A stretch of DNA of 64,000 bases from Antrihabitans auranticaus (GTDB lineage Bacteria; Actinomycetota; Actinomycetes; Mycobacteriales; Mycobacteriaceae), in the NCBI RefSeq assembly GCF_016481275.1, contig NZ_JAEMNW010000009.1, positions 1 through 64,000 on the forward strand, given 5' to 3'. Both the position numbers and the translations under genes were made by a program. The notes under the pieces are model-generated. The model worked only from the letters and a program-made list of their open reading frames with translations. It was not told where the DNA came from and did no database searches. Positions 19,776 to 61,721 of this stretch are shown piece after piece (positions within the stretch are counted from its first letter, which is position 1; the number at the start of each line of letters is the position of its first letter).

Positions 19776-19852
19776 CGGGCTGTGGCGCAGTTTGGTAGCG
19801 CACTTGACTGGGGGTCAAGTGGTCGCAGGTTCAAATCCTGTCAGCCCGACCA
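19776..19852 (+). tRNA. tRNA-Pro (anticodon GGG)
   Basis: A complete cloverleaf of 77 bases. The acceptor strands CGGGCTG and CAGCCCG pair, the discriminator is A, and CCA is encoded at 19850-19852. The anticodon stem CTTGA/TCAAG encloses the loop CTGGGGG, giving anticodon GGG for proline CCC/CCU codons. The T-arm is GCAGGTTCAAATCCTGT. Its 3' half is the attachment site of the island that follows; integration leaves the tRNA intact. Confidence 0.97.
19811..19850 (+). repeat. Left attachment site (attL) in the 3' half of tRNA-Pro
   Basis: These 40 bases, from the anticodon loop to the first two bases after the acceptor stem, occur again without mismatch at 61682-61721 in the same orientation. 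Duplication of a tRNA 3' end is the usual mark of tyrosine-integrase insertion. The integrase remnant lies 24 bases downstream, as expected for an attL. Confidence 0.9.
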
Positions 19853-19873
19853 GGTCAGAGGTAGTTTTCATCG

Positions 19874-20305
19874 TTAGACCACCTTCAGCACGGGACCACG
19901 ACGGGACCGCAGGTTGTTTGAGAGCAGTTGGCCGGCATCGGCGATCGATTGTCCGCTCGGATGTAAGTAGCGCTGTGTGGTACTGAGATCGGCGTGTCCG
20001 GCGATGTCTTTCAAGTGGTGCACCGGAACGCCGGCATCGGCAATCCACGTGAGTCCGGTATGGCGCAGGTCGTGTCGTCGCAGTTGTTCGAGGCCGAGTG
20101 CCACGACGACCTGATCCCAGTGTGTTGCGTCGCGAAGGACGCCGGTTTGGATTCGTCCTCCCTTCGGACCCGAGAACAATCGAGCGTCGGGTTCGTTGTT
20201 CACGGCATGAATTCGTTCGACCACCAGATCGCGGATGTCCTCGATGAGCGGAACGTTCCGAGCGCGCTTGCCCTTGGTTCTCGGACCCCGTTTCTCGCGA
20301 TTTGA
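19874..20305 (-). pseudogene. Tyrosine recombinase (integrase) C-terminal remnant
   Basis: The minus-strand frame ends at 19874 and encodes about 140 residues of a phage/ICE-type integrase catalytic domain: TKGKRARNVPL with the beta-hairpin lysine, HDLRHTGLTWIADAG with His and Arg, GHADLSTTQRYLHP with the second His and nucleophile Tyr. The first catalytic Arg and the whole N-terminal arm-binding and core-binding domains are missing. The coding match fades near 20305, where the next gene begins on the other strand. A full integrase would be about 370-400 residues. Its end adjacent to attL is the normal layout. It is the probable relic of the enzyme that inserted the island. Confidence 0.85.
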
Positions 20306-20319
20306 TCCGTATCGTGTGA

Positions 20320-21132
20320 ATGATGGACGGAGTCCCACTCGGCGAGCCCTCGAGGCTGGTTAACCGGCGCACGGCGCTTTCGCTGGTCGGCTACGCGGGC
20401 TTGGCGGCTGCGGCGATCGGTGCGTGCTCGAGCAGCCCGAGTCAGGACTCGACCTCGGCACAGACATCCGATGCAAATACCGGATCGACAACGGCCCGCC
20501 CATCCGAGACCACCAGTTCGGCCTTAACCACGGCGGCAACCGTTTCTGGTGTGATGATGTGCCGTGAGGCATGGGGTGCACGCGCAGCCCGTCCTGGCGG
20601 TGAGTCTCACACTCTCTCCCGTATGACGATCCACCACACGGCGGCGGTCCTGGGCGAGAACAGCAACGCACCGGCGCGACTACGTCAGCACCAGCTTTAT
20701 CACCAAGACTCGCAGGGCTGGATAGATATCGCCTATCACGTCAGCGTGGACCGCAACGGGAACATTTACGAACTGCGAAGGCCGGACCTCGTGGGGGACA
20801 CTGCGACAAGCTACGACCCGACCGGCCACTTCCTTGTGGTGTGCGAAGGCAACTTCGACGAGGAAGAGCTGTCGGAGGCGCAGCTTAACGGAGCCGCGTT
20901 TGCGTTCGCCTGGGCCGCACAACAATTCGGCATCGCGACGGAGACACTCGCGGGCCACCGCGATGCCAGCGGGGACACCGCATGCCCAGGTGCCAGCCTG
21001 TATCGCCACGTCAGCTCAGGAGATCTGAAGCGCCGCGTCGACGACCTGTTGGCCGGGGGAACTATCGATCTCCGGACCGTTTGTGGCGCAGAGGCGACCG
21101 CACTGGTTGCGGATATCGAGGCAGGCCACTGA
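20320..21132 (+). CDS. Tat-exported lipoprotein, amidase_2/PGRP-type N-acetylmuramoyl-L-alanine amidase
   Basis: Predicted zinc amidase that cuts between muramic acid and the stem peptide of peptidoglycan. The 270-residue protein has a twin-arginine start (NRRTALSLVG), hydrophobic segment and lipobox-like AAIGAC (Cys36), a Ser/Thr-rich linker to about residue 75, then the PGRP-like domain: MTIHHTAAV (zinc His), IAYHVSVDRNGNIYELR, and GHRDASGDTACPG with the second His and Cys ligands. It sits beside the integrase remnant; its start region lies where the integrase 5' part was lost. ATG 20320 and 20323 are both possible. Roles could be wall remodelling or defence against other bacteria. Confidence 0.87.
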   Translation: MMDGVPLGEPSRLVNRRTALSLVGYAGLAAAAIGACSSSPSQDSTSAQTSDANTGSTTARPSETTSSALTTAATVSGVMMCREAWGARAARPGGESHTLSRMTIHHTAAVLGENSNAPARLRQHQLYHQDSQGWIDIAYHVSVDRNGNIYELRRPDLVGDTATSYDPTGHFLVVCEGNFDEEELSEAQLNGAAFAFAWAAQQFGIATETLAGHRDASGDTACPGASLYRHVSSGDLKRRVDDLLAGGTIDLRTVCGAEATALVADIEAGH

Positions 21133-21192
21133 GCGGCGGACGTCGTCTTTCGGCGAGTGTCGCAATCTGGTTGTCCAGCAATGCTATTCAGC

Positions 21193-22737
21193 TCAGCACG
21201 GAATGATGTAGCTCGGATCGGTCGTGTTATCGAGCCACTTTCCGTATGCGCTTCCCCCGGCGGCGCGGACCGCTGCGCAGATCGCCGTTTGCGTACGGCC
21301 CGCGGGGCGGTACACGGCGTAGATCGGGTTGCCTTCTTCGGTTTCCTGCCGAAGCGACGGGCAGGCGTGGTCGGTCCGCAGATAATCGGCGCCAGGGAAT
21401 TCATCGAGGAACTGCTGGATCTCGGTCTCGTAGCGCCCCGGCGTAACCGCTGATCCGAGCACGACTATTCCGGTGCCGTCACACAATGGCTGGGTGATCG
21501 GTGCACTCACGTTGAGCGCGAAATCTCGGTCCGGCGGTCGCGCGCCCGTCGAAACGGTGATCGCGCCGTCAGTGCCTGCCGGCGGCAAGGTCGATTCGGC
21601 AGCGCCGGGCGTGTCGGTTCCCCGGCCCGACAGCACCACCGCTACGAGAATTGCAGTGACGGCCAGCACGACAACGCCGGCGAGCGCGGCCAGCGCGAGG
21701 GTGTGATCTTTGCGGGGCGGTGGCTGTTCTGTGCCTGCCAGGTAGTGAGATCGCATCATCGTCTGTGCGGATTCCGCGAACAATGTTGGAGGAGGGGTGA
21801 CGTACGACCTCGGACCTGCATGGGCGGACGGCGATGCGGTCGTCGGCGGCGGGGATAGCGGAAGGTCTCGTCGCGACAGTTCCGCGGCTGCGGTTCGCGC
21901 GTCGGCGGCGAGTTGGCCGCACGTTGGATATCGCTGCTCGCGGTCCTTGGCGAGGGCGGTCGCGACGATGTGGTCGACCTCGATCGGAACACCGTGGGTG
22001 CTCGGGCGCGGCGGTGTCTGGTTGAGGTGGCCGCTGATCAGCTGGGCGATTCCTGTTCCGGGAAATGGTTGTTGGCCGGTCAACAGGTGATGGAATGTCG
22101 CTCCGAGCGCGTAGACGTCGACGCGATGGTCGAGTGTGATGTTCGGGTCGAATTGTTCGGGTGCAGCGTATTGGAAACTGGCGAGGACGAGCCCGGTATG
22201 AGTATGTTTTGCGGTGTCCTCGAGCGCTTTGGCGATGCCGAAGTCGGCGAGCACGACTCGTTCTGACTGTCCTGACTCCGATTGTGCGAGAAGGATGTTG
22301 GCGGGTTTGACGTCTCTGTGCAAGATTCCGCGTGCGTGCGCGTAGTCCAACGCGGCTGCGGTTTCGCCGATGATGCGCACAGCACGCTCGACCGACATCG
22401 CCTGTCCGGCTCGGATGGGCCAGGCCGCATCACTGCCGTCGACGTATTGCATGGCGATGTAGAGCTGTCCCTCGTGGACACCGCGCGCGTAAATGCTGAC
22501 GATGTTGGGATGACTCAGCCGTGCGGCGGTCTTGGCTTCTTGCAGGAATCGGGCTTTCAGATCTGCGTCGTCTGCGAGTGTCCGGCTCAGTAGTTTCAAT
22601 GCAACGGGTCGATCGAGGTCGTCGTCGTGGGCGAGGTACATCGTGCCCATCCCACCGGCTCCGATCAGCCGGAAATGCGGTAGGTCGCGAAGCTGTCGCC
22701 GGCCGATAGCGGTGCGCTCATGGCTGAATGATTTCAC
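21193..22737 (-). CDS. Receptor-type Ser/Thr protein kinase (Pkn family)
   Basis: Eukaryotic-like membrane kinase of 514 residues. The N-terminal kinase domain has the glycine loop LIGAGGMGTMYLA, VALKLL lysine, catalytic LHRDVKPANILL, LADFGIAKAL and YAAPEQF, all intact. A Pro/Ser-rich juxtamembrane region leads to one membrane helix (ALAALAGVVVLAVTAILVAVV, about 375-395). The roughly 110-residue outer domain has four Cys (PLCDGTG, DHACPSL, AICAAV and the C-terminal IIPC), probably two disulphides. GTG 22737 is chosen since the kinase fold starts soon after; longer frames to 23040 contain nothing kinase-like. It converges on the amidase gene, 60 bases apart, so both may act at the wall. Confidence 0.9.
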   Translation of the reverse strand: MKSFSHERTAIGRRQLRDLPHFRLIGAGGMGTMYLAHDDDLDRPVALKLLSRTLADDADLKARFLQEAKTAARLSHPNIVSIYARGVHEGQLYIAMQYVDGSDAAWPIRAGQAMSVERAVRIIGETAAALDYAHARGILHRDVKPANILLAQSESGQSERVVLADFGIAKALEDTAKHTHTGLVLASFQYAAPEQFDPNITLDHRVDVYALGATFHHLLTGQQPFPGTGIAQLISGHLNQTPPRPSTHGVPIEVDHIVATALAKDREQRYPTCGQLAADARTAAAELSRRDLPLSPPPTTASPSAHAGPRSYVTPPPTLFAESAQTMMRSHYLAGTEQPPPRKDHTLALAALAGVVVLAVTAILVAVVLSGRGTDTPGAAESTLPPAGTDGAITVSTGARPPDRDFALNVSAPITQPLCDGTGIVVLGSAVTPGRYETEIQQFLDEFPGADYLRTDHACPSLRQETEEGNPIYAVYRPAGRTQTAICAAVRAAGGSAYGKWLDNTTDPSYIIPC

Positions 22738-23400
22738 GCGACCGGGGCGAGGTAGGTGAAGTTCATCTCCAGTGCTCGCGGCGGATGGCGGGAGCGCAAC
22801 TTGAGCGCGAACGAAGCGTGCGAGGTGGCCCATCATCTGTGTGGCGACAGAACATCTGTTCCGTGGGAAAAGGCGGACCACGATGTTGTTAGAAATACTC
22901 GCTGTGGACGCATTCTCTGCCCAGTACGAACCACGGCTGGAGAACCCTTGGAAGGCAAGCAGATTGACGAACGTCGGCTCAATGTCGAGATCCCATGGCA
23001 TGCTTTCGGTTGGCGCAGTCACTGTGCCCGTCGTCGCCACCGATCAGTCGGGCTTCACATCGCTGGGTTCATCTGCGGTCGTGTCCTTCCGGAAGTTCGA
23101 TCCCAGCAAGTCGATCGTCGAAAGGCATCTATCTCGACTGCGAACGCCGGGCCCGTGACCGCCCGACTGTGCTACGCGCTTCGGCAACCCGGCTCGGGAC
23201 AACTTGTTCGCGGTCTCGCCTGAGATCGTCTGTTAGCGTGCCGAATTGCGGGGTTTGCCAACCTGAGCGTGCCGCTGAGGGATTTAAGCACTCGATTGAA
23301 GGTCTATAGTGGGTCGACTAAAGTTGAGCCGTGGAGCGCGTTCGAAGATTTGTTTCGACACCAATGTTTTATTCGATTTTGCTCCGGTGTGAGCAGTATT
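22738..23400. other. Intergenic stretch without a recognisable gene
   Basis: About 660 bases separate the kinase start from the tRNA-like remnant. Open frames exist on both strands, but their translations look like random high-GC sequence and none resembles a family I know. It presumably holds the kinase promoter and debris from past insertions. Confidence 0.5.
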
Positions 23401-23480
23401 ATCGTCGCAGCTCAGCACACCGTTCGGAGCTTTTGAACTCATAATCCATTGGTCGCGGGTTCGAGCCGCGCCCGCCCCAC
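23401..23480 (+). pseudogene. tRNA-Met-like remnant (CAT anticodon)
   Basis: The stretch from ACTCATAATCC onward matches the 3' half of an actinobacterial tRNA-Met: anticodon CAT at 23440-23442, a perfect T-arm CGCGG-GTTCGAG-CCGCG (23454-23470) and the CCCGCCCCAC acceptor end. A D-arm-like AGCTCAG...GGAGC lies upstream, but the 5' acceptor (ATCGTCG) cannot pair with the 3' end and the anticodon stem is mismatched. It cannot fold as a working tRNA. It looks like an attachment-site relic of another element. Confidence 0.6.
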
Positions 23481-23521
23481 AATCTCCTTTCTGATGTGAT
23501 GAAGGAGGGGGGCTCCGTCCT

Positions 23522-24225
23522 TTGCCGCACGCCTGGACCGCACCACCCGAATCGCGGGAGCTGCGAGAGTCGTTGCGGCACAGAGTCAAACTGGCCGAGA
23601 TGTGGACCCAATGCAAAGCGCACGCACACGCTGTGGTGGCCAAGGGCGGGATCTGGGTGCCGATTACCGACCCGTACGGTGTGGAAGGCCCTCTGCTGCC
23701 GGACCGTGTCAACCTGGCTGCCCCGTGCAAGGAGCGAATCGGGTCGCTACGCCGATTCGTCGAAGCCTTCGACGCCGAGATCGACTTGTTCACCCGGCTC
23801 GCCCAATATCGACTCGCGCGCGAACGCGGCTACACCGCGATAGAACAGATCCCCGGTATCGGGCCGGTGCGGGAGCAGTGTTTCGTCGCCGAGATCGGGG
23901 ATGTGCACCGCTTCGCGGGACCGACCCAGCTGACCTGCTGGGCCGGGCTCACGCCTTCGCACCACGAATCCGACACCAAGGTGCAGCGCGGCCGGATCAC
24001 CAAACAAGGTTCGCGTCTGGTGCGGTGGGCGGCCATTGAATCGGTGAAGATGCTTCCGGCCACAACCTACATCGGTGGCATTCGCGACAAAGCCGTCCAG
24101 CGCCGCGGCCACCGCAACATCGGTGCGGTGGCCGCGGCCCGCAAACAGCTCGCCGGAGCTCGTCTTCTAGGGCGCGCGATCACCACATCCGTGCGCTGCA
24201 CCGGGCGCCCCGTGCGGCATGAGCA
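23522..24225 (+). pseudogene. IS110-family transposase remnant
   Basis: The frame encodes the C-terminal half of an IS110/IS1111 transposase: a helical linker, the helix-hairpin-helix-like IEQIPGIGPVREQCFVAEIGD, and CWAGLTPSHHESDTKVQRGRITKQGSRLVRWAA followed by RGHRNIGAVAAARKQL. The N-terminal RuvC-like DEDD catalytic half is absent. Near 24160 the expected ending (RDHHIRALHRAPRAA) continues in a different frame, and a TAG interrupts, so there is also a frameshift. It cannot be active. The element's ends could not be located. Confidence 0.85.
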
Positions 24226-24517
24226 CCCAAACTCGGTCGGTCGCGGATCGTGCAGGTCATGACCCCCGACGCCAGCGAGGTCGCCCTTCTGATCCCGACC
24301 GACCGTCCCTGCGCAACGCTTCATGCCGCCCACCGCGCGGCGAAGGAATGGCCGGCGGCCCCACGCCTCCCACCTACCAGGCCCGATCATTCTGAAGCGA
24401 CACAGGCTGGACAGGGTAGGTATCCTGACGTATACGTGAAATATATGACTTAATCGTGGAGAGTGGCGAACTTAAGTACGAGACGCCTGGATGGTCACGG
24501 AAGGGGGCAGGACTCGA

Positions 24518-25540
24518 GTGTCCACATCTGGGATTGCCGCATATGGCCGCGGCCTGAGCCATGGCTTTCAGCTGCCGAAACGGCTCGTCATGGATACAAC
24601 CGACGTCGATGACGCTCGCCAACTGGCGACTCCGCTGCTCTCACCACACCGGCTCACCACTCTCGGCGAGCATCGATTTCGTGCCCAGCTTGCCGTAGCG
24701 CCAGTCAGTGATTGCACGCTTCTCTATCTCGACTACGGTGACGGGTTTCGCGTGAAAGTACGAGGCGGTATCGATTACTACCTGCTGTGCATTCCGATCG
24801 AGGGTTCGGTATCGGCGATCGGAATAGGCTCCGCAGCGTTCCATTCAGGGACAGCGTTGCTTGTTTCGCCAACAGGCGAAGACCTAGAAATGGTCCATGG
24901 GGCGGGCGCGCAACACCTCATGTTCAAGATTCCCGAACACATCCTGCTCGAATCGTATCTTCGCCTCGCTGGGCGACCGCCTGAGAAGCGAATCGTGTTT
25001 TCTTCCGTTCTGCGCCAAGGGTATTCGGGAGATTCTGCGATCGGGAACTTGCGGATTGCTGTCAACCTGACTGCCAGCCAGGAGTCGTCGCCCCGATCTC
25101 TTCATGACGAGCTCCAGCGCGTTGTTGTCGCATCACTACTACTAAGTCAGCCGAATTCTGGGTTGGATGGAATGCTGGCGACGCCGGCCCTCTCCCCGAC
25201 GAGTTCGACCGTGGTGCGGCAAGCACTAGAACTGATGCGTGCCGAGTATTCCGATCCGCTCACCATGGAGTACGTCGCTCGCAGTGTTTCCGTGAGCCTA
25301 CGCAAGCTCCAGTACTCCTTCCGTCAGCAAGCTGGTAAGACGCCGTCAGCCGCACTTCAGGAGATTCGACTTGTTGCAGCGCGCAATTTGATCTGCACTG
25401 GCGAAACACCGCTTTCGATCACCGACGTTGCATACGCGGTCGGGATCTCACACCCGGGTAGGTTCGCCGCAAGTTACCGTCGCCGTTACGGAATGTGGCC
25501 CTCTCAGGCGATGGGCCTCCGCACTGGAGCCTCAAAGTAG
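24518..25540 (+). CDS. AraC family transcriptional regulator
   Basis: A regulator of 340 residues with an N-terminal AraC_binding_2-like sensor (FRVKVRGGIDYYLLCIPIEGS, FHSGTALLVSPTGEDLEMVH) and a C-terminal double helix-turn-helix (SDPLTMEYVARSVSVSLRKLQYSFRQQAGKTPSAALQEIRLVAARNLI, then ITDVAYAVGISHPGRFAASYRRRYGMWPSQ). This domain pair is typical of activators of P450 and aromatic oxygenase genes. GTG 24518 is chosen because GGGGGCAGGA precedes it; GTG/ATG-type starts upstream (24491) are also open. Its 3' end overlaps the reductase gene by nine bases, tail to tail. It may activate the P450 operon opposite. Confidence 0.88.
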   Translation: MSTSGIAAYGRGLSHGFQLPKRLVMDTTDVDDARQLATPLLSPHRLTTLGEHRFRAQLAVAPVSDCTLLYLDYGDGFRVKVRGGIDYYLLCIPIEGSVSAIGIGSAAFHSGTALLVSPTGEDLEMVHGAGAQHLMFKIPEHILLESYLRLAGRPPEKRIVFSSVLRQGYSGDSAIGNLRIAVNLTASQESSPRSLHDELQRVVVASLLLSQPNSGLDGMLATPALSPTSSTVVRQALELMRAEYSDPLTMEYVARSVSVSLRKLQYSFRQQAGKTPSAALQEIRLVAARNLICTGETPLSITDVAYAVGISHPGRFAASYRRRYGMWPSQAMGLRTGASK

Positions 25541-26491
25541 ATCAATAACCAACCGGCGCGACCGCGAGCCGGACACGCAGGGCAGCATGCGGGTGTTCAG
25601 GGATTGCTCCGCCCTACTAAGAACACTGTCTCTGTGATCGGGGATTCCTGAGATGACCTTGACCTCACACGTTCCGCAGGTTCCTTCCTCGCACGAACTG
25701 ACTATGTCGACGTCGGCATCGAGTAGTGCATCGAGGATGCTTTGGTGGGCAGAAACATTGATTACCTCACCGCTTTCGGCGAGTTCGACCTCGAAATCGG
25801 TCATCGCTTGGCTGTGCGCCGCGACGACCTTGGGTGAGAAGTACTCGACGTGCAGATCGACGTGTTGGTGGTTGTCCGACTCGGTTGCGAGTGCATCGAT
25901 TAACTCGTTCGGTCCGCAGGCATATATGTGTAACTGGTCGGCCCCCGCAAACAATTCTCGCAGGTCGTAGCGCTGTCCTTGCTGTTTCGACGCGAAGATC
26001 GTGATCTTGTCGCCATGAGTTGCTTCGAGTTGGCCGACGAACGGCATGCTCTCGCGATCGCCGCCGAGATATAGGCACGAGTACTTCGTCCCAGTCTTTT
26101 GGACTTGCGCCATCATGGGCATGAGTGGCGTAATGCCAATTCCGCCGGCGACAAACAGTACCGGCACTGTGTCAGGCAACAGACGAAAGTTATTGCGAGG
26201 GTTGGCTACCCGAAGTTGACTACCGACAACTACTTGGTCGTGCAGGAATCGGGAGCCCCCTCTCCCCGCCTTGTCCAGCTTTACTGCGATCGTCCACGTC
26301 TCGTTCGAAGTATCGACTTCGCCGCACAACGAGTACTCCCGGCTCACGTGGTCGCTGATGTGTACCGCGATATGTGCCCCGGGTGACCATGACGGCAACG
26401 GCCCAGTGTCATGTGCAAGCACTAGAACAATCACATCCGGCGCCGCGTACCAGCGCTTCGTAACGTTGAGGAGCAACGTGTCTTCGGCCAT
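25532..26491 (-). CDS. Phthalate-dioxygenase-reductase-type oxidoreductase, P450 partner
   Basis: Electron transfer protein of 319 residues that passes electrons from NAD(P)H through flavin to a C-terminal 2Fe-2S cluster. The flavin domain carries SREYSLCGE, the nucleotide domain has FVAGGIGITPLMPMM and YACGPNELIDAL, and the plant-type ferredoxin domain has Cys267-x4-Cys272-x2-Cys275 and Cys305. ATG 26491 is chosen; it shares its A with the TGA stop of the upstream P450 gene, so translation is coupled. This reductase type usually serves ring-hydroxylating or O-demethylating oxygenases (VanB, PobB) or is fused to P450s of the CYP116B class. Confidence 0.92.
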   Translation of the reverse strand: MAEDTLLLNVTKRWYAAPDVIVLVLAHDTGPLPSWSPGAHIAVHISDHVSREYSLCGEVDTSNETWTIAVKLDKAGRGGSRFLHDQVVVGSQLRVANPRNNFRLLPDTVPVLFVAGGIGITPLMPMMAQVQKTGTKYSCLYLGGDRESMPFVGQLEATHGDKITIFASKQQGQRYDLRELFAGADQLHIYACGPNELIDALATESDNHQHVDLHVEYFSPKVVAAHSQAMTDFEVELAESGEVINVSAHQSILDALLDADVDIVSSCEEGTCGTCEVKVISGIPDHRDSVLSRAEQSLNTRMLPCVSGSRSRRLVIDLL

Positions 26492-29943: not shown

Positions 29944-29959
29944 TTGTCGTATGCGTCAA
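29944..29959. promoter_or_regulatory. Putative operator B, TTGTC-N6-GTCAA
   Basis: TTGTCGTATGCGTCAA differs from operator A at only two positions and shares its GTATGC core. It lies between tetR and the maleate-isomerase-like gene, over the ATG at 29951. Half-sites TTGAC (29926) and CGTCA (29934) precede it, repeating the tandem layout of operator A. Confidence 0.5.
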
Positions 29960-30730: not shown

Positions 30731-30758
30731 ACACTTGCTGCAACAGGATTGGAGACCA

Positions 30759-36763: not shown

Positions 36764-36816
36764 GATTATCAACGTACGGTCGCCTTCATCGAAATGTCAA
36801 CATGGTCGTGAAAGTA

Positions 36817-41279: not shown

Positions 41280-41297
41280 CGCCAACCCCGTACTCAC

Positions 41298-42278: not shown

Positions 42279-42291
42279 GTTGTTTGAACAG

Positions 42292-42345: not shown

Positions 42346-42381
42346 GGCTTGATTTTCAGTTCCTCCGAGCCGATTGAGAAC

Positions 42382-43938: not shown

Positions 43939-44145
43939 GGGGGTCTCCGATTCAGGCAGATTGTCGTGCAACCGCCTCCTAACCTGTGAAAGCGGTTGCC
44001 TTATAACCAGTTTGATGTGCGACGGTGGGTTGTGCACCACGCCGAGCGGCGGGGAGCGAGTGGCCGAATGGATAGTGGGCGAGACACCGTCGACTCACAC
44101 GGTCCGCGGCGGACCGCGCATACGCGGAACGTCGCCCTGCCGGTA

Positions 44146-51135: not shown

Positions 51136-51329
51136 AGATTTCCATCGACACACACGCCTGCAACGGCTATGGCAACTGCGCCTTCGCTGCCCCCGACGTC
51201 TTCGACGTCGACCTCGCGCGCAATCTCGCCGTACTCAAAGACGACGTCGATCTCGACACCATCGATCTCGACCTGGTCCGCGAGGCCGCCGAGGATTGTC
51301 CGGTGCGCGCAATCCTGTTGGAGGAGTGA
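51132..51329 (+). CDS. 3Fe-4S ferredoxin (CxxYxxC type)
   Basis: A 65-residue ferredoxin. Cys10-Asn-Gly-Tyr-Gly-Asn-Cys16 and Cys56-Pro supply three ligands; Tyr13 replaces the fourth Cys of a 4Fe-4S site, so a 3Fe-4S cluster is likely. Actinobacterial ferredoxins that serve P450s often have such a variable residue at this place. ATG 51132 overlaps the P450 stop, and the reductase ATG overlaps its own stop. Confidence 0.93.
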   Translation: MKISIDTHACNGYGNCAFAAPDVFDVDLARNLAVLKDDVDLDTIDLDLVREAAEDCPVRAILLEE

Positions 51330-52607: not shown

Positions 52608-54698
52608 ATGAGTTACGTAATCGGCGTAGATACAGGGGGCACATTCACCGATGCCTTCGCGGCTGACGACTCGGGCCGCATTGCCAGCGCCAAGTCCTCC
52701 TCGACACCGCCGAATTTCGCGAACGGCTTCCTGAACGCGATCGACGAATTGGCCGCCTCGATGAGGCTGTCCACCGCCGAGCTCCTCGGCGACACCGGCT
52801 ACATCATTCACGGCACAACATCGACCCTGAATGCCCTCGTTACCGGCGATGTTGCAGAAGTCGGTTTCATCACCACACGCGGGCATGCCGACTCGATTTC
52901 GATCATGAACGTCGAAGGCCGCTAAGCGGGACTGGGTACCGACGAAATCCAGAACATGTCCGCCACCAACAAGCCGCAGCCGTTGATCCCGCGGCGCCGC
53001 GTTCGAGAAGTCAACGAACGCACCGACTACAAGGGCGCCGAGATCGTCGCACTCGACGAGGACGGTGTACGACGCGAGGTCCGCGAACTCATCGCCGACG
53101 GCGTCGAAGCCATTGCAGTGTCGCTGCTGTGGTCCTTCCGCGACCCCACCCACGAGCGTCGAATCCGCGAAATCATCGCCGAAGAGGCGCCAGGACTTTA
53201 TGTCGCGCTGTCGAGCGACGTCAGTCCTCGAATTCGCGAGTACCCACGCAGCGTCACCACGATCATGAACACCCAGGTAGGTCCTCGACTGCGCGCATAC
53301 CTGGCGCCGTTGGAAGCCGATCTGCGCGAGCGCGGCTTCACCGGCGCGTTGTTGGTCATGCAAGGCAGCGGTGGATGTGTGACCGCAGAAAACGCGCCCG
53401 CAAACGCCATCAGCACGATCGGGTCAGTCCTCACCGGCGGCATCGTCGGCTGCCAGCAGCTCGCGTCGGCGCTCGACCACACCAACATCATCTCCACCGA
53501 CATGGGCGGCACCACATTCCTCGTCGGTCTTGTGCTCGACGGCGAGGCTGTCAAAACGTCGAGTACCGTGCTCAACCAGTACACGATCAGTTCACCGATG
53601 GTGGACGTCCACACGATCGGCGCCGGAGGCGGAGCGATCGCCTGGGTCGACGCCGGCGGCAATCTCAAGGTCGGACCACGAAGCGCCGGTGCGTCGCCCG
53701 GGCCGGCTTGTTACGGCTCTGGTGGCACAGAACCAACGGTGACCGACGCAGACCTCGTGCTGGGAATCGTGAACCCCGACTACTTCCTCGGTGGCCGCAA
53801 AACTCTCTCGAAGGAGTTGGCAGAAAGCGCAATTCGGGAAAAGATCGCCGACCCGCTCGGGCTCACCGTCGACGAGGCGGCCGCGGCGATCTACGCCATC
53901 CAGAACGCTCAGACCACCGACCTGGTTCGCAAGGTTGTCGTCGAGAGCGGACAAGATCCCCGCGACTTCGTCGTCTATGCCTATGGCGGTGCCGGGCCCA
54001 TGCACTGTGCCAGCTACTCGGCCGATCTCGGAGTGAAAGAAGTCATCGTTCCGCTCGGTCCGACGGCGGCGGTCTTCTCCGCTTTCGGCCTCGCTGCATC
54101 CGACATCATTCTGACCGCCGAACACTCGCAGCCAGACAACATGCCGGTCGATCCGAATCAGGTCAACGCGACCTTCGATCGTCTCGAAGAGCACCTGCAG
54201 ACCCAACTCGCGGCACAGGATCTCGAATTTTCCGATATCCGATTCGAACGCGAGGCCGATATCCGCTACACCATGCAGCTGGCGGAGGTGTCGGTCCCGG
54301 TGTCGTCGGGAACCATCTCCCACGAAGACGTGGTGTTGCTGTCGAAGAGCTTCGAGGAGCGATACGAACAGCGCTTCGGCAAAGGCTCGGGATTCCCCGA
54401 CGCGGGCATCCAAATCATCACGTATCGACTTCGCGCGGTCGGTTGCCTACCGATCCGACCGCAGCTTCCCCCCTTCCACGACGGCTCCGGCGCGCCGGTA
54501 CCTCGTGCCCGACGGCAGGTCTTCCTCGACGTCGTGCGGCGGTGGGAGGAAACGCCCATCTACCACTACCTCGACCTCGGCGTGGGAGACGCGATCAGCG
54601 GCCCCGCAGTGGTGGAAGCGCCTACGACAACCGTCGCGTTGCCTGCGGGCTGCAACGCGGTCGTCGACCGACTCGGCAACCTCTCGATCACCTACTAA
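52608..54698 (+). pseudogene. HyuA/acetone-carboxylase beta-like subunit with an in-frame stop
   Basis: The frame encodes a 696-residue hydantoinase A / acetone carboxylase beta-type ATPase (actin-like fold) but codon 106 is TAA (52923-52925). Sequence on both sides is collinear: GVDTGGTFTDAFA and IIHGTTSTLNALVTG before it, RRRVREVNERTDYKGAEIV, STDMGGTTFLVGLV and VYAYGGAGPMHCASYSADLG after it. Many relatives have a Tyr where the stop falls, one base away. Possibilities are a dead gene, reinitiation at 52956 giving a 580-residue protein lacking the nucleotide loop, or a sequencing error. It precedes the alpha- and gamma-like subunits with 15-base spacing. Confidence 0.87.
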
Positions 54699-54713
54699 CG
54701 GAAAGGACCGACC

Positions 54714-56720
54714 ATGGCACTCCATCCCGTCGCCGGCTCCGACAAGTTCGTCAGCACTCTCACTCCGACATCCGAACTCCGCCACCGAGTTCGGGGCGTC
54801 GCATTGCACGATGTCAGCGCCGATGACGTCGCCGCGCTCGACGCCCTGACCTACGAAGTGGTCCGGCACCGAATCGCAGCGATCACCGAAGACATGGGCG
54901 ACGCGCTCAAACGAATGTCCGGATCGGTGGTGGTCACCGATTGCAACGACTTCGGCACCCTGATCCTCGACGAGGGCGGTGACTCGGTACAAATGGGGCT
55001 GTTCAACACCCAGCTCGCCGCCGCTGTCGACCTCGCAGTCAAATGGACACTCGAAAACCGTACTGCAAATCCAGGCATCCGCGAGGGTGACATGTTCTTC
55101 TGCAACGACCCGTGGGTCGGTGGGGGACTGCACCAAAACGACGCGTCCGTCCTCGCGCCGCTGTTTTATGGTGGCGAATTGTTTTGCTGGACTGGGGCAG
55201 TGGCCCATCAGGTGGATCTCGGTGGCGTATCGCCGGGCAGTTGGTCGGTCGACGGGATGGACGTCTTCTGGGAATCGATTCCGATCCCGCCGATCAAGAT
55301 CGTCGAGGCCGGCGAGTTGCGTGCCGACATCGAGGACAGTTACCTGCGCCGCTCTCGTGTACCGAAGCTGGTGGCGCTGGACCTGCGGGCAAAGATCGGT
55401 GCCAACAACGTTGCACACGACCAACTGCGACGGCTCATCGACAAGTACGGCCCGACCACGGTCAAAGCCGTCATGCGTCGAATGATGGACGACGCCGAGT
55501 CCCGCGTCTCCAAAAAGCTCACAAGCCTTCCGGACGGAACCTGGACCTCCGTCGCCCACCAGGACGGGGCACGTGCCGGGGACCGGGAGGTGCACAAAAT
55601 CGTATTGACCATGAGCAAGGTCGGCGACCGGCTGACCTTCGACTTCACCGGAACCGACCAACAGGTAGACGGAATCTCCAACTGCACTTTCGCCGGCCTC
55701 CGCGGAGGCATCATGCCGGTGCTGCTGACCCTGCTGTGCGGCGACATCCCGTGGTCTCCAGGCGGAATCTCACGACGAGTCGACATCATCAGCGAACCCG
55801 GCACTCTGAACAACTGCACGTTCCCCGCCGGCATCGGAAAAGCCTCGGTCGCGTCGGCCTGGGCAACCCAGAACGCGGCCACCGAGTGCGTCGCCAGCAT
55901 GCTGGCTGCTAGCGAAGAGCACAAGAAATCGGCGATGGCGGTCGGCTGCGGAACGTGGGATCTGACCTTGCTCGCCGGAGTCGATCAGCGCGGTGCCGGC
56001 TTTGCCACGATGCTGTGCGACGCGATGGCGGGCGGCATGGGCGCACGTGTCGATGCCGATGGCGTGGACACCGGCGGCGGCAACCCGATCGCGATGGGCC
56101 GAGTAGCCGACGCAGAAATGAACGAATTCAGCTTCCCAATTCTCTACCTATGGCGGCGCGAAGAGGCCGACTCCGGGGGAGCGGGCCGCTTCCGCGGTGG
56201 TCTTGGCGGGTCGAGTTGCTTCGTCCCGCACGATTCACCTATCGACCAAATCCATCTGGTGCTCTCCGCTACGGGCAAGGCGCTTCCGCAAGCTCCCGGC
56301 TTGTCCGGCGGGTACCCCGCCAACACGCAATTCGACGTCCTCGTTAGGGGTGCCGATGTCGCGAAACTGTTCGCGAACAAACACATTCCCGCAAATCTGG
56401 AAGAACTAGGCGGGGACCTGCAGATTATGCCCGCACATCTGGAAACCGAACTGACTGCGCAAGACGTGTACTTCACACATTGGCAAGGCGGAGGAGGCTA
56501 CGGAGATCCGCTGCTACGCGAGCCCCACCGGGTCGCCGTCGACGTCGAACGACACCGCGTCTCTGCTGCGGCCGCAACAACCTTGTACGGCGTCGTCATC
56601 GACGGCAATGGCGACGTCGACGAAGCACAAACCGAAACCCGTCGACACAGCCTGCGTCGGGAACGGGCCGGACTGGCCACCGACAGCGAAGAGCGACAGG
56701 AGATTCACCATGCGCGTTGA
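54714..56720 (+). CDS. HyuB/acetone-carboxylase alpha-like subunit
   Basis: A 668-residue hydantoinase B family protein. It shows DALTYEVVRHRIAAITEDMGDALKRMSGSVVVTDCNDF, FFCNDPWVGGGLHQNDASVLAPLFYGGELFCW, the GxxNCTFAG and PGGISRRVDIISEPGTLNNCTFPA blocks, and a C-terminal QGGGGYGDPL. The family covers N-methylhydantoinases, 5-oxoprolinases, caprolactamase, and the alpha subunits of acetone and acetophenone carboxylases. The small zinc-type partner that follows argues for a carboxylase. ATG 54714 has AAAGGA. It is not interrupted. Confidence 0.9.
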   Translation: MALHPVAGSDKFVSTLTPTSELRHRVRGVALHDVSADDVAALDALTYEVVRHRIAAITEDMGDALKRMSGSVVVTDCNDFGTLILDEGGDSVQMGLFNTQLAAAVDLAVKWTLENRTANPGIREGDMFFCNDPWVGGGLHQNDASVLAPLFYGGELFCWTGAVAHQVDLGGVSPGSWSVDGMDVFWESIPIPPIKIVEAGELRADIEDSYLRRSRVPKLVALDLRAKIGANNVAHDQLRRLIDKYGPTTVKAVMRRMMDDAESRVSKKLTSLPDGTWTSVAHQDGARAGDREVHKIVLTMSKVGDRLTFDFTGTDQQVDGISNCTFAGLRGGIMPVLLTLLCGDIPWSPGGISRRVDIISEPGTLNNCTFPAGIGKASVASAWATQNAATECVASMLAASEEHKKSAMAVGCGTWDLTLLAGVDQRGAGFATMLCDAMAGGMGARVDADGVDTGGGNPIAMGRVADAEMNEFSFPILYLWRREEADSGGAGRFRGGLGGSSCFVPHDSPIDQIHLVLSATGKALPQAPGLSGGYPANTQFDVLVRGADVAKLFANKHIPANLEELGGDLQIMPAHLETELTAQDVYFTHWQGGGGYGDPLLREPHRVAVDVERHRVSAAAATTLYGVVIDGNGDVDEAQTETRRHSLRRERAGLATDSEERQEIHHAR

Positions 56721-57212: not shown

Positions 57213-57929
57213 TCAAAGCCAGCGTGGCGGCACCGGTGAAGCTTCGGGCGAGGTCACCCCGACGGCACCGCGGCCCGCGGACCAGCGGACGATCGAGGCA
57301 AGGTTGCCTCGGACTACAGAGGCTGCGGTGTGGCCCGGTTTGATCGCAATCGGAGGTGTGCCTGACACGTCCAGGACAAGTTGGGAGCCGAGCTCGTTCG
57401 TCCGCCACGCCTTGACGATGTCGGACAGAACCGAAGTCAGCACGACCGCGGGGAGGTCGGTGAACCGGCCGGTGCCGGCGAGATCGACCGCGTGAATCCA
57501 GACCTCGCGTGCGCGCATCCAGGCGGTCTCGGCAGCGGGAACGATTCGTCCTTGCACGGTAACCACTTCGGCGTCCCAGGCCGAGTCGGCAAGATGGCGC
57601 CATTTCTCGTCCAGCCGAGCAACGGTGTGGTCGAACAAGTTTCGAAGCGCGCCGGCCGACAAAGTAGCTCCGGCGCTGATTTCGTCATTGCGCTGCTGCA
57701 CAGACGCGTACATCGGGATCTCTGTACCGGACGCCGCCCAGTCCAGCAGTCGACACAGCGCTGCTGCGTTGTAGGCGACGTGGGCGATCACGTGTTTGCG
57801 CGTCCACCCGTCCAGAAGGGTGGGCCCGGCCAGTTCGTCGTCGGATAGCTCCCCGAGCTGTTGGGCGAAGAACGAGGTTCCCCGGCGAGCAAGGACGAGG
57901 CGCTCAGCCAGCGGAAGGTCGTGAAACAT
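57213..57929 (-). CDS. Mycothiol-dependent maleylpyruvate isomerase
   Basis: Isomerises maleylpyruvate to fumarylpyruvate with mycothiol as cofactor. The 238-residue DinB/YfiT-fold protein closely matches the characterised Corynebacterium glutamicum enzyme (FHDLPLAERLVLARRGTSFF, LLDGWTRKHVIAHVAYNAAALCRLLDWA, ETAWMRAREVWIHAVDL, and the end PPRWL). The zinc ligands His and Glu/His of these motifs are present. ATG 57929 is listed; an in-frame TTG at 57941, two bases after the upstream stop, is equally possible. It is the last gene of the gentisate operon. Confidence 0.94.
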   Translation of the reverse strand: MFHDLPLAERLVLARRGTSFFAQQLGELSDDELAGPTLLDGWTRKHVIAHVAYNAAALCRLLDWAASGTEIPMYASVQQRNDEISAGATLSAGALRNLFDHTVARLDEKWRHLADSAWDAEVVTVQGRIVPAAETAWMRAREVWIHAVDLAGTGRFTDLPAVVLTSVLSDIVKAWRTNELGSQLVLDVSGTPPIAIKPGHTAASVVRGNLASIVRWSAGRGAVGVTSPEASPVPPRWL

Positions 57930-57943
57930 GTTGTACGACAAGA

Positions 57944-58765
57944 CTACTTGACCACCGTCTTGTTACGAACCGAGCCGAGGCCCTCGATGCTGATCTCCAC
58001 AACTTGCCCGTCCCTAATGTAGCGCGGTGGTTTGCGGGCATGCCCAACGCCGCCTGTCGTGCCTGTGATGATGACGTCGCCGGGTTGCAGCGTGACGATA
58101 TGGGAGATGTACTCCACGAGAGCGGTCGGCCCGAAGACCAGATCATCGGTGAATGCGCTCTGCATTACTTCACCATCGAGGCGAGCCTCGATTTTGGTTC
58201 CCGGGACGTAGTCGGTGACCAGATGCGGACCGAAGCCGCTGGTCTTCTCGAACGTCTTGCCCTGGTCCCACTGCAGCGTGCGGTACTGATAGTCGCGCAT
58301 CGTGTAGTCGTTGATCACGGAATAGCCGGCGATATGGTCGGCCGCATCTGCCTCGGTTACCTGGTAGGCGCGCTTGCCGATCACGACTGCGAGTTCAGCC
58401 TCCCAGTCCAATTCGGAGCTGGCGTATGCCGGAACGAAGACGTCGTCGTTCGGTCCGGTGAGCGCTTCCTTGAATTTCGCGAACAACGTCGGATGCGCAG
58501 GCAATTCGCGCCCCATCTCCTTGATGTGCGTGGCGTAGTTCAGACCGACACAGATGATCTTGCCCGGATTCGGGACAACCGGTGCGTAATCTGCGTCGAG
58601 CAGGCTCACGGTCGATCCCGAGGCAAACTTCGCAAGTACCGACCAGTCCGCGGTTCCGAGCAGTGCCGACAGGTCGGAATAGCCCTCGATGACGGTGGCC
58701 TCGGTTTCGCTGTCGATTCGAACAGCGACAGTTGTGCCGCCATGACGCAGAGTGGCGAGTTTCAT
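57944..58765 (-). CDS. Fumarylpyruvate hydrolase (FAH family)
   Basis: Hydrolyses fumarylpyruvate to fumarate and pyruvate, the last step of the gentisate pathway. The 273-residue protein has the FAH core: KIICVGLNYATHIKEMG, the metal-binding Glu-x-Glu in LDWEAELAVVIGK, SVINDYTMRDYQYR, and GDVIITGTTGGVGHARKPP. ATG 58765 with AAGGAG upstream. It lies between gentisate dioxygenase and maleylpyruvate isomerase with gaps of three and about 14 bases, forming one operon. Confidence 0.93.
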   Translation of the reverse strand: MKLATLRHGGTTVAVRIDSETEATVIEGYSDLSALLGTADWSVLAKFASGSTVSLLDADYAPVVPNPGKIICVGLNYATHIKEMGRELPAHPTLFAKFKEALTGPNDDVFVPAYASSELDWEAELAVVIGKRAYQVTEADAADHIAGYSVINDYTMRDYQYRTLQWDQGKTFEKTSGFGPHLVTDYVPGTKIEARLDGEVMQSAFTDDLVFGPTALVEYISHIVTLQPGDVIITGTTGGVGHARKPPRYIRDGQVVEISIEGLGSVRNKTVVK

Positions 58766-58768
58766 CGA

Positions 58769-59833
58769 TCAAGCTCCTTCGGAAATCAACGTGCGGTTCA
58801 GGTGTAAGCGTTCGACGATCGGTGCGTCGGAGAAGACGAACACGTCGAAGTCGGTGTCGGCCTCGATCGACCACTCCACCCAGGACGGAACCGCGATCAT
58901 GTCGCCCGTGCCGACCTGGTGAGTCCGCCCATCGAGAACGAAACGCCCAGACCCGTCGAACACCTGGTAGACACTCGATCCGACATCACGCCGGGTTCGC
59001 GTCACTGCTCCTGCACGAAGCCGGTGGAATTCGGCGCGGACGGTCGGCATGACGTCACCGCCCGTGGTCGGGTTGGTGTAGCGGACTGCAGCGTGGCCTG
59101 GCTCGGTGGTCGCAGCAAAACCTTCGTCCTCGAGTGAAAGCTGCTCGCGCAACGCGGCGTCGGTGTGTTCCCACCGGTAGGCCGCTATCGGTGAGCTCGT
59201 CTTGGCGCCGAGGCCGATCAGCGGACGAAGGCCGGGATGCGACCACAGCCGCTCCGAGCGCGACGTGTCGGGTGTGGAGTCGTCGGTGACGCCTTCGGAT
59301 CCGAATTCGAAGAATCCGGTGTCGGTGTAGTGCACGAACGGAATGTCGAGGCCGTCGATCCATGCCATCGATTGATCGGTCTCGTTGTGGTGTCCGTGGA
59401 AGTTCCATCCAGGAGTCAGCAAGAAGTCGCCTCGACGCATCGCGACTGGGTCGCCGTTGACGACAGTCCAGACTCCTTCGCCCTCGATGACGAAGCGAAA
59501 TGCGTTCTGGCTGTGTCGATGTTCGGGAGCTGTCTCTTTCGGACCGAGGTATTGGATGGCTGCCCACAGAGTGGGTGTGGCGTGGGGGACTCCACCCAGG
59601 CCGGGGTTGGCCAGGGCGATGGCTCGCCGTTCCCCACCGCGGCCGACAGGCACGAGATCGCCGGCGCGCTGCGCAAGTGGGTACAGCGCCGACCATTTCC
59701 ACACGAACGGTATTGCCCTCGACCTGGGAGCCATTGGCATCAGATCACCGAGTTGAGTCCACAGCGGATTCAAATTGTTCGTTTCGAAATCGCGATACAA
59801 CTCGGTGAGTGCGTCCTGCTCTGTGGTCGTCAT
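58769..59833 (-). CDS. Gentisate 1,2-dioxygenase
   Basis: Opens the gentisate ring with O2 between C1 and C2, giving maleylpyruvate. The 354-residue bicupin has the iron-binding first cupin PEHRHSQNAFRFVIEGEG and LTPGWNFHGHHNE, and a second cupin with YQVFDGSGRFVLDG and DMIAVPSWVEWSI. ATG 59833 with GGAGGG before it is chosen; the frame open to 59908 is upstream sequence. It is the first gene of the minus-strand operon gdo-fah-mpi. Two TTCTG-N5-CAGAA repeats lie in the promoter region shared with the 3-hydroxybenzoate hydroxylase. Confidence 0.95.
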   Translation of the reverse strand: MTTTEQDALTELYRDFETNNLNPLWTQLGDLMPMAPRSRAIPFVWKWSALYPLAQRAGDLVPVGRGGERRAIALANPGLGGVPHATPTLWAAIQYLGPKETAPEHRHSQNAFRFVIEGEGVWTVVNGDPVAMRRGDFLLTPGWNFHGHHNETDQSMAWIDGLDIPFVHYTDTGFFEFGSEGVTDDSTPDTSRSERLWSHPGLRPLIGLGAKTSSPIAAYRWEHTDAALREQLSLEDEGFAATTEPGHAAVRYTNPTTGGDVMPTVRAEFHRLRAGAVTRTRRDVGSSVYQVFDGSGRFVLDGRTHQVGTGDMIAVPSWVEWSIEADTDFDVFVFSDAPIVERLHLNRTLISEGA

Positions 59834-59942
59834 TCGAGACCCTCCTCTGTGCGCGATCGCAACTGGACTTGCATCGGCAAGTCGCGGGCGACTGGGTTCT
59901 CCTGGCAACGCTAGAGAGAAGGTCGCCAGGAAACCACGGTCG

Positions 59943-59957
59943 TTCTGTCATACAGAA
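59943..59957. promoter_or_regulatory. Putative IclR-type operator 5, TTCTG-N5-CAGAA
   Basis: TTCTGTCATACAGAA lies 110 bases upstream of gentisate dioxygenase in the 460-base divergent region (59834-60293). Its reverse complement, TTCTGTATGACAGAA, is identical to operator 6, so the two form an exact inverted pair 117 bases apart. No gene is visible in this region. Confidence 0.7.
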
Positions 59958-60073
59958 CGCTGTGAACGAGCCGGGCGAGAAGGTTGAGGCGAATCTATGC
60001 GCTGCGCATAGGGCTTTGTGGCTGGTGCGCAATATGGAGTTGGTTCGTTAGAAAGCCAGGGAGTTCTAAAATG

Positions 60074-60088
60074 TTCTGTATGACAGAA
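60074..60088. promoter_or_regulatory. Putative IclR-type operator 6, TTCTG-N5-CAGAA
   Basis: TTCTGTATGACAGAA lies 206 bases upstream of the 3-hydroxybenzoate hydroxylase ATG. It is the exact reverse complement of operator 5, suggesting joint control of the divergent gentisate genes. Confidence 0.7.
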
Positions 60089-60293
60089 CGCAACTGGTTC
60101 GTAGCATGTCGATGCGGCACAGTATGCGGCAGACGGGGCCTTTGGTTCGATGAACCTGCACTGAAAGCGGCAGAGGTTGCGATATCTGCTAGGTACTCGC
60201 GAGATCCGCTGCGCCGTCCGGTGATTGCGATAGCAAAGCCGCCGCGCTCAAGTGCTTCAACCGCCTCGATTGCGCACTCGCCAAGGGGAAAAG

Positions 60294-61544
60294 ATGTCGG
60301 AACTTCGCAACTCCAAGATCGTAATCGCTGGCGGCGGAATCGGCGGTGTAGCCAACGCCCTGGCACTCGCGCGCCGTGGTGCTCATGTGGTCCTTCTGGA
60401 GCGAGCGAGCACATTCGGCGAAGTGGGCGCTGGGCTTCAGATAGGTCCGCATGGCTCCCGCATACTGCAGTCCTGGGGCGTGCTGGACGATGTGCTGGCC
60501 AAGGGTGTTCGGCCGCGCAACCTCGTTTTTCGTGACGCTCTGACAGCCGAAGTTCTCACGAAGATTGACCTCGGCGCAGCTTTCGTTGAGCGCTACGGCG
60601 GGCCCTATTTCGTCACGCATCGAAGCGATCTGCACGCGGCGCTGGTAAGGGCAGCACGCGAGGCAGGTGCCGAGTTGCACAACGGTATAACGGTAACCGA
60701 TGTCACGACAGAGAAGGACAAAGTCGTCGTCGCCACCCGGGGTGGACGCGTCTTCGAGGCAGACATTGCGCTTGGCATGGACGGTTTGAATTCCCGGTTA
60801 CGCCGCAAAGTGAGCAATGACGAGCCCGTCTCTTCCGGCTATGTCGCCTACCGGGGAACCTTCTCCTTCGACGATGTGAACTTCGAAGAGCACCTCGAAG
60901 ATGTTGTCGCTTACATCGGCCCGCGATGCCACTTCATCCAATACCCGCTTCGAGGCGGCGCAATGTTGAACCAAGTTGCGGTCTTCGAATCGCCCGGCTA
61001 TAAGCGGGGTGTCGAGGAGTGGGGCGGACCGGAAGAACTCGACCAGGCGTACGCGGACTGTCACGAAAACGTGCGCCGCGGGCTCGGGTACCTGTGGAAA
61101 GACCGACGGTGGCGCATGTACGACCGGGATCCCATCGACAACTGGATCGACGGACGAATGATTCTCCTTGGCGACGCCGCCCATCCACCCCTGCAATATC
61201 TCGCCTCCGGCGCAGTGATGGCGATGGAGGATGCGAAGTGTCTGGCTGACTACGCTGTCCAGCAATACGCTCTTCGAGGCGGAAACGTCGCCTGGCCCCA
61301 CATTCTTCGTGCTGTCAACGACGAGCGTGCCGTCCGGTGCAACCGCATCGTCACAGTCGGGCGTATGTGGGGCGAGCTCTGGCACTTGGACGGAACTGCA
61401 CGACTCGCACGCAACGAACTCTTTCGAACTCGTGACACGACGAGCTTCAAGTACACCGATTGGCTCTGGGGATATTCCTCGGCGCTGTCGGACCAACCGC
61501 GGCTCGTTCAGCCCGTTGAAGTGGTCGGCGCGGACCGCTTTTGA
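60294..61544 (+). CDS. 3-Hydroxybenzoate 6-hydroxylase (FAD)
   Basis: Converts 3-hydroxybenzoate, NADH and O2 to gentisate. The 416-residue group A flavin hydroxylase resembles Rhodococcus jostii RHA1 3HB6H along its length: [102 protein letters not shown] and the ending [14 protein letters not shown] 60294 has AAGGGG before it. It is divergent from the gentisate operon and supplies its substrate. It is the last gene before the right end of the island. Confidence 0.94.
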
Positions 61545-61681
61545 CGGACCGCGCACTTTGGCGCACGGGACCACGACGGAACACACGGCATGCGCGCTCC
61601 TTCGCAATGCTGAGGTCAGCGCTATATTTTGAATCCTGCAGAACGTGCCTGACGTGCGTAAACGGGCGACGTTCCGTCCTC

Positions 61682-61721
61682 GGGGTCAAGTGGTCGCAGG
61701 TTCAAATCCTGTCAGCCCGAC
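61682..61721 (+). repeat. Right attachment site (attR), copy of the tRNA-Pro 3' end
   Basis: Exact 40-base copy of 19811-19850, without the 5' half of the tRNA. In the 470-base gap around it (61545-62013) I see no gene. CAGGTCAGAGGT, which follows the tRNA at the left end, occurs here after ten extra bases (61732-61743), and GCACGGGACCACGACGG occurs both at 19888 and at 61563. Confidence 0.9.

Follow-up and report, generated by a model that had tools for sequence, protein, structure and literature searches.

A catabolic island at the tRNA-Pro(GGG) gene of Antrihabitans auranticaus, probably the remains of an insertion by a pSAM2-type integrase

The window analysed here comprises positions 1-64000 of contig C24 (184,001 bp) from the 6.5-Mb, 24-contig genome of Antrihabitans auranticaus (G000). 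It contains a tRNA-Pro(GGG) gene, some 42 kb of mostly catabolic genes and a second copy of the 3' end of that tRNA gene. These 42 kb are probably the remains of an island laid down at tRNA-Pro(GGG) by a tyrosine integrase of the family found in actinomycete integrative and conjugative elements (AICEs) of the pSAM2 type, the right end of which lies in a tandem array. Both ends carry integrase-arm repeats near the spacing of this family, and the integrase gene is broken. A sequence-only reading had proposed an integrase-made island with precise outer boundaries; the island stands, with two ends recognisable by their arms and with ribulose monophosphate (RuMP) and gentisate-type modules inside, but a single element with exact outer limits is not supported. 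The genus was represented by four genomes, G000 and the congeners G001, G002 and G003 (the last being Antrihabitans stalagmiti YC3-6), and the integrase family was searched for in 401 genomes of the bacterial family at E<=1e-30.

The tRNA-Pro(GGG) gene, the integration target, was located by ARAGORN at 19776..19852 (plus strand) and is the sole tRNA in the window. Repeat comparison confirmed that its 3' 40 bases recur 41.9 kb away, base for base, the left core copy (attL) lying at 19811..19850 and the right copy (attR) at 61682..61721, both on the plus strand. The repeat extends to 43 bp with one mismatch, and in our own judgement an exact 40-mer within 64 kb goes far beyond what chance would produce. 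The same genome has the 43 bp a third time, with arm repeats, at C1:1518543-1518585, and no tRNA-Pro was found within the 20 kb fetched around it, so that such a copy is not diagnostic by itself. Core copies are also numerous in other genomes, at least 12 of 151 having two or more of them no more than 110 kb apart on one contig (a by-eye tally among the copies listed, which counts core copies without sorting whole tRNA genes from fragments). The 40-bp repeat alone was accordingly rejected as the definition of the element. Between G000 (C1:1517322-1542709) and G003 (C1:1-25387), two species whose genes left of tRNA-Pro share about 80% DNA identity, a segment of 25.4 kb is 97.7% identical, which suggests a recent transfer; it includes a stray tRNA-Pro right end together with its arms, located in G003 at 1.2 kb from a tRNA-Val boundary.

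Arm sites at near-fixed positions are stronger evidence for the island than the core repeat. On the left, the arm repeat GCACGGGACCACGACGGGACC is found at 19888..19908 (plus strand), with a repeat pair that starts at 19892, +41 behind the core 31-mer. On the right, the arm repeat GCACGGGACCACGACGGAACA lies at 61563..61583 (plus strand), with its pair beginning at -124 relative to the core 31-mer, and is followed by the box TGACGTGC at 61650..61657 (plus strand), which starts 41 nt before it. The 17-mer GCACGGGACCACGACGG was found only at 19888 and 61563 in the 184 kb of the contig, on both strands and with two substitutions allowed, and the loose arm-pair pattern occurs a single time in the same 184 kb, at 19892. 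We take the two core copies as the attL/attR pair of one integrase family, because the arms stand near the spacing of the family and the 17-mer is present at both ends only. The GGGACC repeats would be bound by the integrase and can be regarded as putative arm sites.

The spacing was derived from the relatives of the integrase. Behind the core, a GGGACC-like pair stands at +63 to +65 in 10 of the 12 integrase-linked tRNA-Pro loci; among the 24 other tRNA-Pro loci it was seen in three, namely the window (+41), Aldersonia kunmingensis L048 (+40) and G353 (+63). Before the core, a fixed template with at most 2 mismatches in 13 positions found the pair in 19 of 23 distal or orphan core copies, at -124 to -137, including the right copy of the window (2 mismatches, -124). 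The upstream flanks of 35 tRNA-Pro genes, where the range of the arm pair falls outside the tRNA, served as control and gave none (best 4 mismatches). A further distal copy outside the 23, that of G211 at 8.7 kb, matched without mismatch at -124. The TGACGTGC box, with at most one mismatch, was present at -41 or -42 in 12 of the 23 copies and in none of the 35 controls within the scanned range, a weak control as this range runs into the conserved 5' part of the tRNA. Copies and controls were hand-picked among the fetched loci, and the 23 copies are not independent, several coming from one genus. Six supposed orphan copies that are other tRNA-Pro genes (shown for L135 and inferred from the tRNA search for the rest) were left out, as was L100, which carries a tRNA and a stray core together.

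The integrase relic announced by the sequence-only reading next to the left core copy is real. It lies at 19874..20338 on the minus strand, matches positions 60-169 of the 172 of the Pfam Phage_integrase profile and aligns with residues ~266-399 of relatives about 400 residues long, so only the C-terminal third is left. Matches to its family were obtained in 17 of the 401 genomes including G000, with 19 hits besides the relic in the 16 other genomes. Twelve of these 19 loci are associated with tRNA-Pro(GGG), one with an orphan core (the second copy of G356), and six have no core in the fetched stretch. Core-to-core lengths were 6.9 kb (G325), 7.0 kb (G396), 8.7 and 39.5 kb (G211), 11.3 kb (G282), 13.1 kb (G193), 21.2 kb (G288) and 105 kb (G356). 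A domain scan of 10 proteins from three of the elements (G282, G325 and G193) found RepSA (PF20199) in the two proteins examined for this domain (G282, G325) and FtsK/SpoIIIE in both scanned for that (G282, G193), as well as small HTH_17 proteins in the elements of G282 and G325 and HD, NUDIX and DUF5919 proteins in that of G282. By their predicted proteins these elements belong to the pSAM2-type AICEs.

The integration target of pSAM2 itself is a tRNA-Pro gene. The island resembles pSAM2-type AICEs in that its core is the 3' end of a tRNA gene and its integrase family sits, in the relatives, in elements with RepSA, FtsK and HTH_17 proteins; it differs from them by its broken integrase and by about 37 kb of mostly catabolic genes in which no rep, xis or tra gene was found. 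The proteins of the relatives' elements, used in tblastn searches over the 184 kb of C24 at E<=1e-3, gave no RepSA match and no FtsK/SpoIIIE match. With an integrase reduced to its C-terminal third and no rep, xis or tra found, the 42 kb are not an AICE at present. Moreover, the search of G000 at E<=1e-30 returned no integrase of this family other than the relic, so that the island should be unable to excise on its own. Tandem AICEs and AICE remnants are described by Ghinet et al. (2011, PMC3218068), as is a gene set of HD phosphohydrolase, Nudix and XRE regulator common to several AICEs. A circular element of Rhodococcus jostii RHA1 without integrase (PMC12169178) is not this element, and a literature search over titles and abstract openings returned no description of this island or of AICEs in Antrihabitans.

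The right end of the island does not mark a boundary with the chromosome as cleanly as had been claimed. A second type of arm, GTGCAGAATTCGTGCAGA, lies at 61770..61787 (plus strand), 49 nt after the core, and forms the left end of a probable second element; it is the sole occurrence of this pattern in the 184 kb. A one-base variant of this repeat stands at +49 directly behind the tRNA-Pro of G002, and an identical copy occupies the same +49 position after an orphan core on contig C42 of G003, where a similar repeat also precedes the core. On contig C24 of G002 a similar repeat precedes a truncated core, next to an integrase whose domain composition differs. The GTGCAGAATTCGTGCAGA repeat therefore looks like the arm of a second integrase. 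As the right core faces this second arm type, which is also found directly behind tRNA-Pro in a congener, position 61.7 kb is probably the tandem junction of two elements and not the edge of the chromosome. No gene order shared with the congeners was found adjoining it. By eye, a terminator-like hairpin was recognised behind tRNA-Pro in A. stalagmiti and in several genomes of other genera. In another genus, G004 has such a hairpin behind a second core copy, 12.2 kb from the first copy (which is possibly not a whole tRNA), and its genus-mate G034 has a like sequence directly behind an intact tRNA-Pro; from these hairpin positions, displacement of the flank by an insertion is seen elsewhere.

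Just right of the junction a HEPN_Apea-domain protein with a defence-like character is encoded at C24:64596-66002 (L002:596-2002). The DNA behind the right ends of the distal copies L108, L112, L117 and L132 (from G193, G325, G211 and G396, respectively) resembles by eye that behind the tRNA-Pro of Nocardia vinacea (L036), where a gene of 417 residues follows on the minus strand. This suggests that tandem elements are also present in G193, G325, G211 and G396.

Immediately left of the tRNA, the genes are closely related to genes of the congeners, of Nocardia and of Aldersonia, and this conserved content reaches the tRNA and stops there, as had been read from the letters. The related genomes, called rhodococcal in the sequence-only reading, are those of Antrihabitans, as the window is not from Rhodococcus. 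Genes behind tRNA-Pro were compared in eight genomes (G001-G003, two Aldersonia and three Nocardia) over stretches of about 3 to 75 kb, a limited test, and at an identity of at least 45% there were only two single-gene matches, one of G002 with Aldersonia (54%) and one of G003 with Nocardia (53-57%). The genes of C24 between 19.8 and 184 kb had four matches above 45% in the fetched stretches: the integrase relic with A. kunmingensis (69%), an HD gene (88%) and a NUDIX gene (94%) at 68.9-69.9 kb with genes that lie in G002 8.5 kb behind tRNA-Pro, and a gene at 161.8 kb with contig C24 of G002 (50%). No island protein had a match above 45% behind the tRNA-Pro of the three congeners, the cargo being thus absent from the same site there. 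At the DNA level, two pieces of 20 kb from 19.87 and 41.68 kb resembled the congeners and the rest of G000 at 64-71% over stretches longer than 400 bp, with short pieces at up to 96%.

In G002 an intact tRNA-Pro runs directly, without the 42 kb, into DNA that resembles the right flank (165 bp, 77%); this DNA of G002 may itself belong to another element. The predicted empty tRNA-Pro site with a single core copy was thus nearly found, although a clean one was not. The two observations named in advance as fatal to the island, congeners with the cargo at tRNA-Pro or an order conserved through 61.7 kb, were not seen. To the right, whole-genome searches of the congeners with the C24 pieces 64-84 and 144-164 kb gave scattered matches for the former and, at about 149-154 kb of the latter, a loose set of four matches in one order at C1:847-873 kb of G003, which is not near the tRNA-Pro contig of that genome. 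The old chromosomal neighbour was not located through the DNA behind the tRNA-Pro of A. stalagmiti either: over 4.8 kb this DNA has a counterpart at 94% identity elsewhere in G002, and what follows it maps to other contigs at 75-76%.

Signs of a stepwise assembly were found in the left part of the island. The 3' half of a tRNA-Met with its 3' flank (23434..23494, plus strand) is 95% identical to C19:384742-384802 of the same genome, one of the short pieces mentioned above, and is possibly the attachment scar of another element. Beside it lies the relic of an IS110-family transposase (23522..24262, plus strand; Pfam), in which only the Transposase_20 domain is present. The two together suggest that the island is a composite assembled in steps.

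The history that best accounts for these data would be as follows. An integrase would have recombined the attP of a circular element with the 3' end of the tRNA, leaving on the left an attL made of tRNA, GGGACC arms and integrase, and on the right an attR made of GGGACC arms, TGACGTGC box and core. The transfer genes would later have been lost or displaced, and part of the catabolic genes would have come in a separate step marked by the tRNA-Met scar and the IS110 relic. The right core would also serve a second element, with arms of its own (GTGCAGAATTCGTGCAGA) beginning 49 nt behind the core. Several observations weigh against this history. The left pair stands at +41 and not at the +63 to +65 of the family, the A. 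kunmingensis locus with its +40 being alike, and the second repeat of the right arm is degenerate. Four of the 23 distal or orphan copies have no arms. The island yielded no remnant of RepSA, FtsK or xis, the genomes compared yielded no clean empty site, and the point at which chromosomal sequence starts again was not identified. In addition, a decayed fragment of this integrase is retained behind the tRNA-Pro of G001 (62 residues, 73-80% identity, in two frames) with other genes after it, and because of this the left end may predate the cargo.

A simpler account is that one element of 41.9 kb was inserted once with all its cargo and lost its mobility genes later, 61.7 kb then being the edge of the chromosome and the DNA beyond it a chromosomal stretch common to G000 and G002. 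The two ends do belong to one integrase family and are in the right order and orientation; the tRNA-Pro of G002 meets right-flank-like DNA as an empty site would; and the same HD-NUDIX pair follows 7.3 kb further on in the contig of the window and 8.5 kb further on in G002. However, the repeat of the right flank is also found on C42 of G003, away from tRNA-Pro and with a like repeat on the other side of the core, whereas the tRNA-Pro of A. stalagmiti itself is followed by the hairpin that resembles those of other genera. HD and NUDIX genes are moreover present in an AICE relative and are described as AICE cargo (PMC3218068). The tRNA-Met scar and IS110 relic inside the island, and the integrase piece that G001 shares without the cargo, also speak against a single event, which we consider unlikely.

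It is less likely still that the two ends were never together, an old integrase relic and the right end of another element having been brought near each other by rearrangement or later insertion. The third core copy on C1, with arms and away from any tRNA-Pro in the 20 kb around it, would fit, and such orphan right ends show that displacement of this kind can happen; the integrase piece in G001 would fit as well. Nevertheless, the two ends are in direct orientation on the same contig and share an identical 17-mer arm that occurs nowhere else in the 184 kb. Arrival with a prophage is very improbable: the core (window:61679-61721) does match 28 phage records (24 at 95-99% and 4 at 90-95%; 25 are named Mycobacterium phages), the best 10 of the 28 over 43-47 bp covering the core, so that it is probably also a mycobacteriophage attachment core and tRNA-Pro a phage target as well, but in those 10 the match ends with the core and lacks the arms, both arms and integrase have their matches in AICE elements, and general Pfam scans of the island genes named no phage structural family, no phage-specific library having been run.

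The statement that all cargo between the core copies is accessory catabolism is nearly right for the island here attributed to the pSAM2-type family, the exception being 20.3-24.3 kb, where an N-acetylmuramoyl-L-alanine amidase (Amidase_2; 20320..21132, plus strand) and a Ser/Thr protein kinase (21193..22752, minus strand), both recognised by Pfam, precede the IS110 relic. The catabolic part begins with an AraC-type regulator (24491..25540, plus strand; Pfam), a 2Fe-2S/NAD reductase (25532..26491, minus strand; library matches) and a cytochrome P450 (26491..27693, minus strand; library and structure matches). The P450/reductase pair at 25.5-27.7 kb was considered as the guaiacol demethylase GcoAB and rejected, the best solved relatives of the P450 being CYP142 chains (169 bits), with no GcoA entry recognised among the matches listed (best 60 of 501). 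Further on, an Amdase-family protein, a VOC protein and a protein of 419 amino acids without Pfam match are encoded at 29951..32901 (plus strand; Pfam), with a divergent relative on C7 of G000. A flavin monooxygenase like salicylyl-CoA 5-hydroxylase and an aryl-adenylate/CoA ligase follow at 33534..36772 (minus strand), both below equivalog cut-offs.

The RuMP formaldehyde cassette occupies 38644..43971 and consists of a LuxR-type regulator, hxlB, hxlA, gnd and zwf (Pfam, NCBIfam). Its identification as RuMP is carried by hxlA and hxlB, which exceed their NCBIfam cut-offs (245.8 against 200 and 223.8 against 160 bits), and gnd and zwf are above theirs as well. The same five genes lie close together on the Rhodococcus plasmids pRHL3 (R. 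jostii RHA1) and pRho-VOC14-C342 (R. opacus), with a DNA identity of 77% over 32% of the query and of 75% over 47%, respectively. In contrast to the plasmids, the island is at tRNA-Pro on a contig with conserved genes, zwf has another position, and next to the cassette of the island no pgi was seen, whereas pgi accompanies that of both plasmids. The P450 near the cassette of pRHL3 is only 29% identical to the one at 25.5-27.7 kb. The region 24.4-49.3 kb as a whole matched 43 plasmid records, 18 of them at an identity of at least 99%, a number equal to that of the Rhizobium records; 12 of the 43 were examined, the 18 being outside these. A megablast search of 49.9-61.6 kb returned no match and thus no near-identical plasmid copy. 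The island gives a tRNA location to a cassette whose carriers, in the plasmid collection searched, are Rhodococcus plasmids.

An aldehyde dehydrogenase and an iron alcohol dehydrogenase follow at 44146..46711 (minus strand; Pfam). Both are short against their profiles, the former lacking about 46 N-terminal profile positions and the latter nearly half of its C-terminal domain, and the cargo may be decaying. A second P450 with ferredoxin and ferredoxin reductase lies at 49927..52555 (plus strand; Pfam and library matches), followed by hydantoinase/oxoprolinase A, in two frames, and B at 52608..56720 (plus strand; Pfam). In the A gene (52608-54698) positions 2-95 and 106-175 of the N-terminal domain profile fall in separate frames, which is a frame break or an assembly error. 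The regions ~30-32.7, 34-36 and 52.6-56.5 kb have a divergent relative (mostly 65-69%) in which the Amdase, VOC, CoA-ligase and hydantoinase genes stand together, at 17.7-28.5 kb of C7 in G000 and on C1 in both G002 and G003, while in the island the set is split between 29951-36772 and 52608-56720.

The last module, of gentisate type (57213..61544), encodes a maleylpyruvate-isomerase-family protein, an FAA-family hydrolase, a gentisate-dioxygenase-like protein and a monooxygenase like 3-hydroxybenzoate 6-hydroxylase. As in the gentisate pathway, the monooxygenase adjoins the gentisate-dioxygenase-like protein, the hydrolase and an isomerase of mycothiol type. Its gene (60294-61544) matches the 4bjy chain, entered as 'probable salicylate monooxygenase', with 723 bits over residues 1-398; this we take to be the 3-hydroxybenzoate 6-hydroxylase of RHA1. 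The monooxygenase is below the NCBIfam equivalog cut-off for 3-hydroxybenzoate 6-monooxygenase (339 against 459 bits), and the dioxygenase-like protein scored 265.9 bits against a cut-off of 442.1 for gentisate 1,2-dioxygenase, though this is its best match in that library. Since both enzymes are below equivalog cut-offs, the substrates on the gentisate side are not fixed. The genes most likely serve at present as resident catabolic genes, and their probable use, we infer, is the oxidative breakdown of aromatic acids via gentisate with the formaldehyde drained by RuMP. A bolder addition would unite all cargo in one pathway, in which P450 enzymes O-demethylate methoxybenzoates, the hydroxybenzoate is converted to gentisate and the formaldehyde enters RuMP.

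At tRNA-Pro(GGG), arm sites at a near-fixed distance at both ends, rather than the repeat, make an attachment pair testable from sequence alone. Such an arm test tells element ends from stray copies, and it points to tRNA-Pro(GGG) as a site of tandem elements with different integrases. On its own, the island should be immobile. As its ends keep most of their arm sites, it could be a dormant passenger whose catabolic block would be excised and transferred in trans by an incoming AICE of the same family, a prospect that we regard as doubtful. If true, tRNA-Pro would be a port at which AICEs gather cargo the size of whole pathways and hand it on among Mycobacteriales.

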